A stretch of DNA of 40,492 nt from an uncultured Alphaproteobacteria bacterium (lineage in GTDB: Bacteria; Pseudomonadota; Alphaproteobacteria; RF32; CAG-239). The notes below the pieces were generated by a model. That model saw only the letters and a program-made list of their open reading frames with translations, had not been told where the DNA came from and did not search any database. Position 1 is the stretch's first letter; every line of letters starts with the position of its first letter. A program made the position numbers and the translations under genes. This document shows, one piece after another, positions 14,014 to 16,798 of the stretch. The DNA lies in the NCBI GenBank assembly GCA_944390895.1, contig CALXRQ010000016.1, positions 1 through 40,492 on the forward strand. The letters run 5' to 3'.

Positions 14014-14089
<76 letters not shown>

Positions 14090-14225: not shown

Positions 14226-14486
14226 TTATTTGGATTTTTTCTTAGAAGTCAAAACAATCTGCGGCATTTTTTTAGTCGTGGAAGATTTTTTGGTCGCAGA
14301 AGAAATCTTGGCAGCGCAGCTGGAAGTTTTTTTGGTTGTTTTGCCTTTGCTGCTCAAAGAAACCATATTGTTGAGCTGGTTGATGGCTGCATTCCAGTCT
14401 TGCAGGCTGGTGTTGGCCGGGCAGCCGTTGTTTTTCCAAATATAGTAAGCAGCTTCACGAATTGCATTTTCATTAAAATTGGTCAT
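14226..14486 (-). CDS. Small DUF2934 protein with Lys/Ser/Thr-rich tail
   Basis: An 86-aa protein. Residues 5-35 (ENAIREAAYYIWKNNGCPA, then SLQDWNAAINQL) match the DUF2934 pattern, in which I...AY.IWE..G.P.......W..AE is conserved. The second half is highly basic and low-complexity (KTTKKTSS, ATKKSSTTKK, SKKKSK), which suggests nucleic-acid contact but does not prove it. The function of DUF2934 is unknown. A GGAGATTTTACA element precedes the ATG. Divergent from the structured RNA and glycan genes at 14.6-16.8 kb. Confidence 0.75.
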   Translation of the reverse strand: MTNFNENAIREAAYYIWKNNGCPANTSLQDWNAAINQLNNMVSLSSKGKTTKKTSSCAAKISSATKKSSTTKKMPQIVLTSKKKSK

Positions 14487-14581
14487 TGTAAAATCTCCGA
14501 TAAAATAAAAGAACCATAAAACAATCTAGAATTGAAATGTTAAAAAAGAATTAGCATTTTGAAAAATAGAGAAAAAATTTC

Positions 14582-14609
14582 TTGCTAAAAGAATTTTATT
14601 TATTAGACT
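14582..14609 (+). promoter_or_regulatory. Possible promoter of the structured RNA
   Basis: TTGCTA (14582-14587), 16 bp and TAGACT (14604-14609). It would start transcription just before the GNRA-capped hairpin at 14618. The -10 is only fair, so this is tentative. Confidence 0.35.
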
Positions 14610-14610
14610 G

Positions 14611-14806
14611 TTTCTTGAACTGAGAAATCAGTTTAGGGCGTCGAAAACCCTTATAAATCTAGTCGTTGCATAACGACTTAAAATATTTATGCCGATTTCT
14701 GTCTCGGACGGATGTCGGCTAAATAAGGCTATGTGCTGAATAAGCCGAGACGTTTGGATTTATACGGTTTTCGAACATCCGCCACCTTTCCGGTGGGTTT
14801 TGTTTT
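14611..14806 (+). ncRNA. Candidate structured RNA with pseudoknot (leader or sRNA), family not recognised
   Basis: No protein gene lies between 14487 and 14832; this stretch instead folds extensively. Seen directly: hairpin AACTGA-GAAA-TCAGTT (14618-14633) with a GNRA loop. A long-range helix pairs TCGAAAACC (14641-14649) with GGTTTTCGA (14766-14774) and, in register, TATAAATC (14652-14659) with GATTTATA (14757-14764). Inside it are hairpin AGTCGTT-GCAT-AACGACT (14661-14678) and helix GTCTCGG (14701-14707) with CCGAGAC (14745-14751). CGGATGT (14709-14715) also pairs with ACATCCG (14775-14781), crossing the long helix as a pseudoknot or a switch. A weak terminator-like hairpin follows at once. 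The GT29 gene starts 26 nt later, so it could be cis-regulatory or an independent sRNA. Confidence 0.6.
14782..14806 (+). terminator. Weak terminator-like hairpin at the end of the structured RNA
   Basis: CCACC (14782-14786) pairs with GGTGG (14792-14796) around TTTCC and is followed by GTTTTGTTTT. It directly abuts the 3' strand of the crossing helix (14775-14781), which would suit an attenuator. Confidence 0.5.
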
Positions 14807-14832
14807 ATCAAAATATATAAGGATGTTTGAAT

Positions 14833-15852
14833 ATGAAACTGATATATAAACAACGCTTGGGCAGCAAGACCGTTATTTCAATTTTGGGAATTAAAATAAA
14901 ATTCAATAACAATAAAGATTCTGTTCTGGAAAAGTTTTGGGAACAGTGGGAGACGGACTATAATCCGCAAAAATTAGAAAAAGACCTCAAAAAATATATT
15001 GCTTCTCAGACGGAAATTCCTGAATATAACCGTGAAATCCGCTTAATTTTGATTTCGACACTGATTGAAAACAATCAGTTACGGGAAGCGGAAACGGAAC
15101 TTGAAAAATATGTCAATCAGTATGGCTATGCCGACATTTATGCTTATCCGCTGATTTGCGCGCATTTGGCCAAACGCGGAAGCGGCGATGAAAGGATCTT
15201 CCAAACCGCAAAAATTTTTGAGCAGCTGGAAGAAAAGCGGCTGAACAACAGCTTATCTGCACTGCTGTCCGGAAAAAGCGTTGCCGTTGTCGGCAACTCT
15301 CCCAATCTTATCGGTCGTAATAACGGCGCCATAATTGACGATTTTGACTATGTTGTCCGTTTTAACAATTATCGCCTGGAGGGATATGAAAACGACTACG
15401 GGCACAAAACAGATATCTGGATATGCTGTCAGGCCAATGATATTCAAAATAAGCCGGAAAATGAAATCAGAAAGTTTTCTTATATTTTATACAATGTAGA
15501 TTTAATGCATACTAAGTTAAGGGGAAAATGTTTTCAGAATATTTGTCAAAACCTGCAATACGGCGTTCCGATTTCATATATTGATGCGTCTTTCAAAAAA
15601 GAGCTGAAAATCACAGAGGTAAAATATCCGTCTTCCGGTTTAAGCGGCCTTTTTCATATTCACAATTTGCACCCGTTGACAAGAAAGGACATATTCGGAT
15701 TTTCTTTTCTGGAAAATGACACTAATTATTACGATCATTATTTTGCCAAAAGAAGCAAACGAAAAATAAAAAAATTTTTGAAAAACTGCCATCATAACTT
15801 TGAAAAGGAAAATATTTTTCTCAATGTTCTCTTTGGAAGTGACAATGGTTAA
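14833..15852 (+). CDS. GT29-family (sialyltransferase-fold) glycosyltransferase
   Basis: A 339-aa protein. The first 25 residues (KTVISILGIKIKF) resemble the short N-terminal motif often seen on polysaccharide-synthesis proteins. A helical, TPR-like part follows to about residue 145. The C-terminal part carries sialyltransferase-type motifs: the L-motif-like GKSVAVVGNSP (147-157) with DFDYVVRFNNY and GHKTDIW after it, the S-motif-like YPSSGL (265-270) with DIFGFSF, and the HX4E motif HNFEKE (321-326). Such enzymes move sialic acid or a related sugar from a CMP donor. No CMP-sugar genes are nearby, so donor and acceptor are unknown. ATG 14833 is 9 nt from AAGGA. It overlaps the next gene by 8 bp. 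Confidence 0.75.
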   Translation: MKLIYKQRLGSKTVISILGIKIKFNNNKDSVLEKFWEQWETDYNPQKLEKDLKKYIASQTEIPEYNREIRLILISTLIENNQLREAETELEKYVNQYGYADIYAYPLICAHLAKRGSGDERIFQTAKIFEQLEEKRLNNSLSALLSGKSVAVVGNSPNLIGRNNGAIIDDFDYVVRFNNYRLEGYENDYGHKTDIWICCQANDIQNKPENEIRKFSYILYNVDLMHTKLRGKCFQNICQNLQYGVPISYIDASFKKELKITEVKYPSSGLSGLFHIHNLHPLTRKDIFGFSFLENDTNYYDHYFAKRSKRKIKKFLKNCHHNFEKENIFLNVLFGSDNG

Positions 15853-16798
15853 AGTTGTGATTTTGAATGACACGACCCGCGACGAAGGGCACATCGGTTG
15901 TCGGCTGGTAATGGAAAATATGCGGAAGCTCTGCCGGGAAAACGGCTGGAACGTGCTGTTTTGCGATCAAAACGGACGAAACGGTTTTTCAAAAAAAGAG
16001 TTTCAGGCTGCAATAGCGCCCGCCGATATTGTCTTGCTCAACGGAGAGGGAACATTACACGATGACGCCGGCAGCGTTTGGTTGCAAAAAGCGGAAATCG
16101 CTAAAGAAAACCATAAAAAAGTGTGCCTGTTGAATGCAACCTGGCAGAACAATCCGCAAAATAAGCGATATCTGCCCTGTTTTGACCTGCTTAGTTTCAG
16201 AGACGAGAAGTCGTTGCGGGAGGCGGAACGGGACGGTGCCGAAAACATATTTTGCACGCCGGATTTGTCTTTTTATTCGTTTAATAAATTAAGGCGGATT
16301 GAACATACCGCTGTCAGAGATATGCTTTGTATCGACAGCACGCTGAAGAGTGTTACGGCGGCGTTGATAAAATATGCCTATAAAAACGATTGTGACATTT
16401 GTTTTATGTATGAGAAAAAGAGAAAAGCCTGGGCTTCCAAATTAGTCTGCAGGTGGCAAAATTTCTGGTCTCGCCGCCATTTTGAGCTTTTGTCTTCGGC
16501 CGAACGGATTGCCCGCTATCAAAAAATTGTTTCCGGACGCTATCATGCCTGTTGTCTGGCGTTTATGATGAACATTCCGACCTTGGGGATTGGCTCCAAC
16601 ACCTGGAAAACGGAGGCATTGTATCAAGAAGCCGGATTGACGGAGTTTTTTCTGCCCGAAATCAGTAAAAATCTAAACGAACGCATTTTGTCTTTTGCCG
16701 GGTTGTCTCCAGAGGCATGGCAGGAAAAATGTTTTGAATATTCAAGCCAAGCGCAGCGGAAAATAAAGTTTTTGTTCCGCCTGTTGGAACATATATAA
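15845..16798 (+). CDS. Polysaccharide pyruvyl transferase-family protein
   Basis: A 317-aa protein with the PF04230-type layout. An N-terminal strand, KVVILNDT, is followed by ADIVLLNGEGTLHDD, the family's GGG.l.-like donor-site segment. SFRDEKSLREAERDG and CTPDLSF come next. The C-terminal IVSGRYHACCLAFMMNIPTL matches the conserved sGRfHa...A...P element. Family members put pyruvate ketals, or other groups, on exopolysaccharide sugars. The ATG at 15845 overlaps the stop of the GT29 gene in the sequence ATGGTTAA, which implies translational coupling. The protein is small for the family. It ends at a strong terminator. Confidence 0.78.
   Translation: MVKVVILNDTTRDEGHIGCRLVMENMRKLCRENGWNVLFCDQNGRNGFSKKEFQAAIAPADIVLLNGEGTLHDDAGSVWLQKAEIAKENHKKVCLLNATWQNNPQNKRYLPCFDLLSFRDEKSLREAERDGAENIFCTPDLSFYSFNKLRRIEHTAVRDMLCIDSTLKSVTAALIKYAYKNDCDICFMYEKKRKAWASKLVCRWQNFWSRRHFELLSSAERIARYQKIVSGRYHACCLAFMMNIPTLGIGSNTWKTEALYQEAGLTEFFLPEISKNLNERILSFAGLSPEAWQEKCFEYSSQAQRKIKFLFRLLEHI

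Follow-up and report, generated by a model that had tools for sequence, protein, structure and literature searches.

The segment at positions 14616-14832 (+) of the window, by which we mean the whole 40,492-nucleotide stretch of DNA analyzed here, is one copy of a multicopy RNA family and almost certainly serves as a cis-regulatory leader, a structured RNA whose family is uncatalogued. Judged from its sequences, the leader probably acts as a switch, in which a compact pseudoknotted state would free the Shine-Dalgarno sequence and disfavor a terminator, and an alternative state would hide the Shine-Dalgarno sequence. A sequence-only reading of the window had proposed an unrecognized pseudoknotted cis-regulatory leader at this place, and the proposal is supported by the negative Rfam result and by the covariation described below.

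The leader lies upstream of a gene for a glycosyltransferase of the sialyltransferase-like family 29 (GT29; 14833..15852, +; Pfam PF00777, E = 1.4e-18). A polysaccharide pyruvyl transferase gene (15845..16798, +; Pfam PF04230, E = 2.4e-18) overlaps the GT29 gene by 8 bases when its start is taken at 15845, and the two genes probably form one operon with the pyruvyl transferase gene second. The 345-bp gap before the GT29 gene had been described as free of reading frames, and it holds no open reading frame of at least 80 amino acids, the smallest size listed. Positions 14560-14840 fold with -85.7 kcal/mol (z = -6.35), and none of 200 dinucleotide shuffles was equally stable. Divergent from the leader, positions 14226-14486 (-) encode an 86-amino-acid protein with a C-terminal tail rich in Lys, Ser and Thr.

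A cmscan search of Rfam 15 gave no gathering-level match for the window copy, the sole gathering-level match in the whole window being a tRNA at 14017-14089 (-), and a scan of 20 loci of the family at the gathering level returned only tRNAs. In the region 14400-15000, three matches below the threshold appeared at E values up to 5, one being on the minus strand. The weak likeness of 14706-14791 to RF02221 (sRNA-Xcc1; 24.2 bits versus a gathering score of 53) was regarded as chance, as was a match to RF04346 (Plastid-ccsA-ndhD-1, a plastid 3' UTR family; 23.8 bits versus 48.5), in which a long stem resembles P1a plus P1b of the leader. No description of this RNA was found in the open-licence papers searched; a term search of PMC11109978 gave no occurrences, and the retrieved passages of PMC10043782 contained no description of it.

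Helices and pseudoknots of the leader

The GNRA-capped hairpin of the sequence-only reading was found at 14617-14634 (+) as P0, GAACUGA-GAAA-UCAGUUU, with the loop GAAA. P0 abuts the 5' side of the domain. Of 107 copies, 97 carry a hairpin of at least 5 bp at this position, compared with a mean of 39 and a maximum of 59 in shuffles, and 90 different 5' arms occur among them.

The long helix assigned to 14641-14659 and 14757-14774 is present as segments of 8 and 9 bp, but the final two pairs of the shorter segment are reassigned. In the light of related copies, its CC/GG end is better read as parts of two small helices, GGG/CCC (14636-38/14648-50) and CCGU/ACGG. The former closes the hairpin P1', GGG(CGUCGAAAA)CCC (14636..14650, +), whose loop makes P1a; 97-98% of its cells are paired, one of its three pairs changes on both sides, and the other two vary on one side only, the first GGG/CCC pair almost only from G-C to G-U. 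The latter is P5 (14751..14766, +), which is shortened to CGU/ACG in the window copy and has four pairs in most copies. The P5 loop holds the 3' strand of P1b, 92-96% of its cells are paired, and three of its four pairs show changes on both sides. P1a itself pairs UCGAAAA (14641..14647, +) with UUUUCGA (14768..14774, +), all six counted pairs being double-changed and 97.9% of cells paired. P1b pairs UAUAAAUCU (14652..14660, +) with GGAUUUAUA (14756..14764, +), with eight of eight counted pairs double-changed and 90.2% paired.

Both helices predicted inside the long helix are present, at 14661-14678 and 14691-14719. The first, P2 (AGUCGUU-GCAU-AACGACU, +), has double changes in all six counted pairs; pairs one to five are formed in 99.0% of cells and the sixth in 81.0%. 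Its loop GCAU (14668..14671, +) forms the pseudoknot PK2 with AUGC (14689..14692, +), two bases of which are common to P3. P3 (GCCGAU/GUCGGC, +) is double-changed in four of four counted pairs and paired in 99.0% of cells. The stem-loop P4 (GGCU ... AGCC; 14727..14746, +) follows with 94.5% of cells paired, and three of its four pairs vary on one side only, almost solely from G-C to G-U. Stretches between the helices, AAUAAGG and RAAUA, are strongly conserved.

The core strand CGGAUGU (14709..14715, +), which mimics the Shine-Dalgarno sequence, is complementary to ACAUCCG at 14775-14781, as had been noted. This crossing helix is conserved with compensating changes: 96-97% of cells are paired, and five of seven pairs change on both sides. 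Since the crossing helix overlaps the inner pairs of P3 and PK2 overlaps the outer ones, the helices cannot all form together.

These counts derive from a covariance model, R1, that was built from an alignment (A1) of 21 distinct copies from the genus. The 171 model matches gave 144 distinct copies, of which 108 remained after copies at least 90% alike were dropped. The test alignment, A2, holds 104 matches from 100 sources and leaves out five loci that were cut short, at contig ends or weak (L079, L120, L139, L153 and L206). Across the 48 proposed pairs on the 104 copies of A2, including pseudoknots that are absent from the model, 95.1% of cells are standard pairs, compared with 81.2% in shuffles, and 40 of the 48 pairs are double-changed, compared with 24.5; the counts for the nested helices lean towards structure because A2 was fitted to the nested helices of R1. 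The crossing helix, P5, P1' and PK2 are not helices of R1. The covariation score of A2 was 0.405 versus 0.154 in shuffles, and none of 500 shuffles was as high on any one of five measures, a comparison in which related copies can beat shuffles without any structure. When the partners were slid by 1-3 columns, pairing fell to 30.9-46.7%. For PK2, 90.3% of cells are paired, compared with 83.6% in shuffles (0 of 500 as high) and 5.6-47.8% when slid; all four of its pairs are double-changed, which was equally the case in 69 of 500 shuffles. Paired positions contain 221 G-U cells and 74 A-C cells, and this excess indicates an RNA on the plus strand. Most helices thus show compensating changes, P4 and the first GGG/CCC pair being weaker in this respect, and the element has a conserved folded domain with covariation, as a riboswitch does.

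A strand complementary to the core and the Shine-Dalgarno sequence, next to a terminator-like hairpin

The switch strand UUCGAACAUCCG (14770..14781, +) has two possible partners. Besides the core, positions 14770-14780 are complementary to GGAUGUUUGAA at 14821..14831 (+). This pairing, the most informative of all and absent from the sequence-only reading, covers the Shine-Dalgarno sequence of the GT29 gene (start ATG at 14833) and the bases that follow it. The ACATCC strand after P1a may therefore pair with either GGATGT of the core or GGATGTT of the Shine-Dalgarno sequence, and at the level of sequence these are mutually exclusive structures sharing one strand, as in riboswitches.

Over 103 copies, the duplex of the switch strand with the Shine-Dalgarno leader of the same copy has a mean energy of -10.9 kcal/mol. 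The mean was -8.82 (sd 0.19) when the leaders were exchanged between copies and -4.34 (sd 0.19) when their sequences were shuffled. The duplex reaches -9 kcal/mol or stronger in 71 of the 103 copies and is weaker than -6 kcal/mol in 18; some of these 18 come from wrong automatic start choices, and others look real. With one copy taken for each of 19 classes of switch sequence, the core:switch energy was -15.4 for own partners and -9.87 (sd 0.66) for permuted ones, and the Shine-Dalgarno:switch energy was -8.36 and -6.35 (sd 0.45), respectively, with 0 of 500 permutations as strong in either case. The core, switch and Shine-Dalgarno strands thus co-vary three ways, and the partners tend to track changes of the switch. 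One genome of the family (G075) has the switch ACACCC with the core GGGTG and the Shine-Dalgarno sequence GGGTGTT, switch and Shine-Dalgarno having changed together in several of its copies. At another locus (L203) the switch GAATCC goes with the core GGATTT and the Shine-Dalgarno sequence GGATTTTC, and distant families combine CTCCC-type switch strands with GGGAG cores and GGAG Shine-Dalgarno sequences. Some copies have a Shine-Dalgarno helix that continues into the P1a strand, with 13 bp at locus L028, and there P1a would be excluded too.

In the window copy the core helix has an energy of -8.9 kcal/mol and the bare Shine-Dalgarno helix one of -13.5 kcal/mol, a balance that is indicative only because the energies are pseudoknot-free. 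The nested (pseudoknot-free) ensemble pairs the Shine-Dalgarno sequence with the switch at a mean probability of 0.905 and a gain of 6.1 kcal/mol. Sequestration of this kind would also be expected of an RNA thermometer, in which heat melts the Shine-Dalgarno helix. Such a thermometer is a simple hairpin around the Shine-Dalgarno sequence that lacks a conserved sensing domain, and it needs neither a large conserved domain nor a second, competing strand that copies the Shine-Dalgarno sequence. The leader has a large conserved domain with pseudoknots, and we regard a thermometer as extremely improbable.

As had been pointed out, the crossing helix directly abuts a terminator-like hairpin. The hairpin, CCACC/GGUGG, has a G+C stem at 14782-14796 and then a GUUUUGUUUU tract (14782..14806, +), the order of elements in an intrinsic terminator. 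The 10 nt that follow the stem contain at least six T in 102 of 108 non-redundant copies, compared with 19% of control stretches, and all six pairs of the stem are double-changed in some copies. The crossing helix can be extended by three positions into the 5' arm of the terminator. These positions are paired at 76.4%, compared with 72.9% (sd 0.8) after permutation (0 of 1,000 as high), which is a small effect; all three are paired in 43 of 103 copies. The window copy pairs at one of the three, and because of this weak extension control of termination is less clear there than in many related copies. An antiterminator between AAAACCC on the P1' side and GGGUUUU on the terminator side was also considered and was dropped by eye, as divergent copies, for example L175 and L191, do not keep the pairing.

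Upstream of the leader, alignment with sibling copies places a weak promoter-like pair, TTGCTA and TAGACT separated by 16 nt, at 14582..14609 (+), where several siblings have TTTACA and TAATCT separated by 17 nt; a consensus scan of the window stretch found no promoter. Of 97 copies, 52 have their best -10 box ending 5-8 nt ahead of the first hairpin, a position counted without a shuffled control, and the overall promoter score is slightly above that of shuffles (8.85 versus 8.45). At the other end, the distance from the terminator stem to the start codon, with starts chosen by rule, has a median of 35 nt and is at most 60 nt in 100 of 106 copies, which places the element, like a riboswitch, in the 5' leader near the start codon.

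The same features bear on the idea of a free small RNA, in which the terminator would end most transcripts at about 14806, an RNA of about 190 nt would act in trans, and the closeness to genes would be secondary. The frequent U-tract and the promoter-like boxes just 5' of the first hairpin agree with such an RNA, but the copies sit close to start codons, and the switch co-varies with the Shine-Dalgarno sequence of its own gene, which a trans-acting RNA would not need. For these two reasons we consider a free small RNA improbable.

In the switch that we favor, the compact domain would be held together by pairing of the P1' loop with UUUUCGA, of the P5 loop with P1b, of the P2 loop with AUGC and of CGGAUGU with ACAUCCG. 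The Shine-Dalgarno copy inside the domain would then hold the ACAUCC strand, so that the real Shine-Dalgarno sequence would be free and the gene ON. If the domain were not stabilized, the ACAUCC strand would pair with the real Shine-Dalgarno sequence and the gene would be OFF, and the terminator hairpin beside the switch strand would be unopposed as well. A ligand, probably a small molecule, would stabilize the compact state. We infer that the compact state is the ligand-bound, ON state because the conserved domain is usually the ligand-bound form, the usual logic of riboswitches. The main output may be the Shine-Dalgarno sequence, either in place of the terminator or together with it. Comparison of the copies shows the helices, the exclusivity of the three strands, a terminator signature and a location just ahead of start codons; the RNA would in addition have to be made and to switch in the cell. 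Against the switch stand the 18 of 103 weak duplexes, the weak promoter and little terminator overlap of the window copy, two distant GT29 homologues (L280 and L281; 28-33% identity) that have no copy, the 12 of 83 genomes of the taxonomic family that gave no match, and the competition of P3 pairs with the crossing helix and with PK2.

Downstream genes and distribution of the family

Downstream open reading frames were assigned by rule for 141 of the 144 distinct copies, and 40 further ones were added, 5 of which repeat earlier copies; among the 40 loci of the further set, L237 and L243 gave nothing by a simple pattern. The largest downstream cluster consists of 41 lipoproteins, labeled by reading, and the one member tested has a PEGA domain. 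Other surface proteins are Cys-rich secreted proteins, autotransporter-like proteins (labeled by reading), an outer-membrane beta-barrel cluster and prepilins (Bundlin/PilS). GT29 genes follow the leader at three loci, the window and L248 by Pfam and L279 by similarity, and GT2, GT8, GT1-type and Stealth proteins and a hexapeptide transferase also occur downstream. Choline-kinase-like proteins, again labeled by reading, also occur (one tested is Pfam APH), together with EcoRI-type methylases, an Mrr-type nuclease and small HTH regulators. A simple sequence rule classes 90 of the 137 downstream proteins as looking exported, 5 of these with a prepilin motif, and about one-third as not, restriction-modification and regulatory genes among them. 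The downstream set is dominated by the cell surface and not by glycan synthesis alone. Beyond the sequence-only reading, the family is not confined to glycan genes and recurs ahead of many genes, most of them surface genes.

This gene set allows a real switch with another trigger, such as a regulatory protein, a trans-acting small RNA, or the state of the ribosome or of a secretion system. The downstream genes share a place (surface and export, as the 90 exported-looking proteins of 137 suggest) and not a metabolite, and none of those inspected was seen to reveal a ligand. On the other hand, the leader has the conserved AAUAAGG and RAAUA stretches and several pseudoknots; conserved stretches between helices and several pseudoknots are typical of ligand-binding domains. 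We consider such a trigger rather unlikely as an account of the family, and between a metabolite ligand and a protein or small RNA partner, a metabolite is somewhat more likely.

A DNA search of the genome of the window gave four strong copies, all at E <= 1.9e-26, and the genome has at least two further copies that are divergent. All seven genomes of the genus were matched by DNA search at E <= 1, each with at least one strong copy. R1 matched 71 of 83 sampled genomes of the taxonomic family at E <= 0.01, the other 12 giving no match at this threshold, and 128 of 154 genomes of the order at E <= 1e-3, those listed all coming from one family. At E <= 1e-4 it matched 22 of 385 genomes of the class, with other families included, and 1 of 398 in a sample of the phylum, which was the genome of the window itself. 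Since R1 rests on copies from the genus, divergent members are probably undercounted in the class. Scanning named genomes with a sequence pattern yielded at least 99 loci, and all but 19 of these (L154-L172) were covered here. Their titles name Alphaproteobacteria, proteobacterium/Pseudomonadota, Rhodospirillaceae/Rhodospirillales, Azospirillum sp. (including Azospirillum sp. CAG:239) and bacterial metagenome-assembled genomes; many sources are ruminant and other gut samples, and nearly all records are metagenome-assembled genomes.

A phage or plasmid origin of the RNA was rejected after an exact-pattern scan of IMG/VR viral contigs and a blastn search of plasmids had each given 0 matches. The single match in the phage search was MT836653.1, a fecal scaffold deposited as UNVERIFIED Bacteriophage sp. 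Positions 575-788 of this scaffold (L211) hold a full copy before an autotransporter-like gene, with recombinase-like genes nearby (names by reading), and the scaffold is probably bacterial or mobile DNA rather than phage.

A second build of the RNA, type B, came to light in a set of 26 homologues of one lipoprotein. Directly upstream, 9 of them have a strong R1 copy (more than 100 bits) and 7 a weak one (25-37 bits), and 10 have none. Type B comprises five of the weak copies (L268, L269, L271, L276 and L277) and the fifth R1 match of the genome of the window (on contig C17), and L272 fits it poorly. In type B, GAGC/GCTC (GAGC/GCUC in the RNA) replaces GGG/CCC, P5 has TCAT/ATGA, the core is GGTCGGGGAG-like, the switch is CTCTCCGACC-like and the Shine-Dalgarno sequence is of the GGAG type. 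It precedes the same kinds of gene as type A, and a DNA search with one type B copy matched 12 of 385 genomes of the class (E <= 1e-5). That one gene family carries type A or type B according to species suggests one regulon logic with two RNA builds. Two type B copies in the genome of the window, L185 (G000:C17:23670-23867) before a lipoprotein-like gene and L294 (G000:C10:46394-46630) before an unidentified gene, both have a CGGGGAG core and a GGAG Shine-Dalgarno sequence.

Several loci also show the element in multiple or truncated form. Genome G075 (L173-L184) has 32 matches at E <= 0.01, and 13 fetched copies precede paralogous Cys-rich secreted proteins. Two RNA copies lie close together at L212 (G057:C48) and at L191 (G202:C23), and each copy at L191 precedes its own copy of an 80-amino-acid gene that is HTH-like by eye. 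At L120 (DGGW01000021.1, 5336-5502, -) a copy cut at its 3' end adjoins a gene for a tyrosine integrase (PF00589), which looks as though the RNA gene had been used as an attachment site, and L079 is likewise cut at the 3' end. The multiple, tandem and integrase-side copies indicate that the unit also duplicates, and mobility may contribute.

A DNA repeat that moves or duplicates, of the MITE-like or mobile-promoter kind and with no regulatory switch, would account for several copies per genome at unrelated genes, the 32 matches in G075, the tandem copies and the truncated copy beside the integrase gene. Without function, however, covariation on one strand that tolerates G-U, three-strand co-evolution and closeness to start codons would be unexpected, and we regard a repeat of this kind as very improbable. 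Spread by duplication is compatible with a regulatory role.

Relation to known regulatory RNAs

The family appears to be an uncatalogued structured regulatory RNA that is common in one group of gut and rumen alphaproteobacteria and belongs among the riboswitch-like leader RNAs. Translational riboswitches use an anti-Shine-Dalgarno/anti-anti-Shine-Dalgarno platform. The family resembles them in its 5' leader domain, in the strand common to the domain and to Shine-Dalgarno sequestration and in its exclusive folds, but differs in that the downstream genes are mostly surface genes and not one pathway and that a copy of the Shine-Dalgarno sequence lies inside the domain. With transcription-terminating riboswitches and attenuators it shares a terminator-like hairpin and U-tract that follow the domain immediately and touch the switch strand. 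Unlike in terminating riboswitches, the terminator precedes a Shine-Dalgarno sequence that the same strand can hide, and both levels may be controlled. Like mobile promoters and MITE-like repeats, the promoter-like boxes, leader and Shine-Dalgarno sequence recur as a unit before unrelated genes; unlike them, the family has RNA-level covariation and co-evolution of three strands.

A wider reading, which we offer tentatively, is that the family could be a large new riboswitch class with at least two subtypes that runs a surface program and has spread as promoter-switch-Shine-Dalgarno cassettes. As part of the same tentative reading, one strand would be shared by the internal mimic of the Shine-Dalgarno sequence, the real sequence and the edge of the terminator. 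If so, the program would cover lipoproteins, autotransporters, pilins and surface sugars in gut and rumen alphaproteobacteria, and the ligand would be the cue that guides these bacteria in the choice of their surface.

The three-strand design with a Shine-Dalgarno copy inside the domain is directly testable by paired mutations, and the covariance model with its 144 distinct copies offers a basis on which an Rfam entry and a ligand screen could be built. The family would join many surface genes into one regulon that is invisible to protein annotation alone, and the identity of the ligand would reveal the signal that controls the surface of these bacteria.
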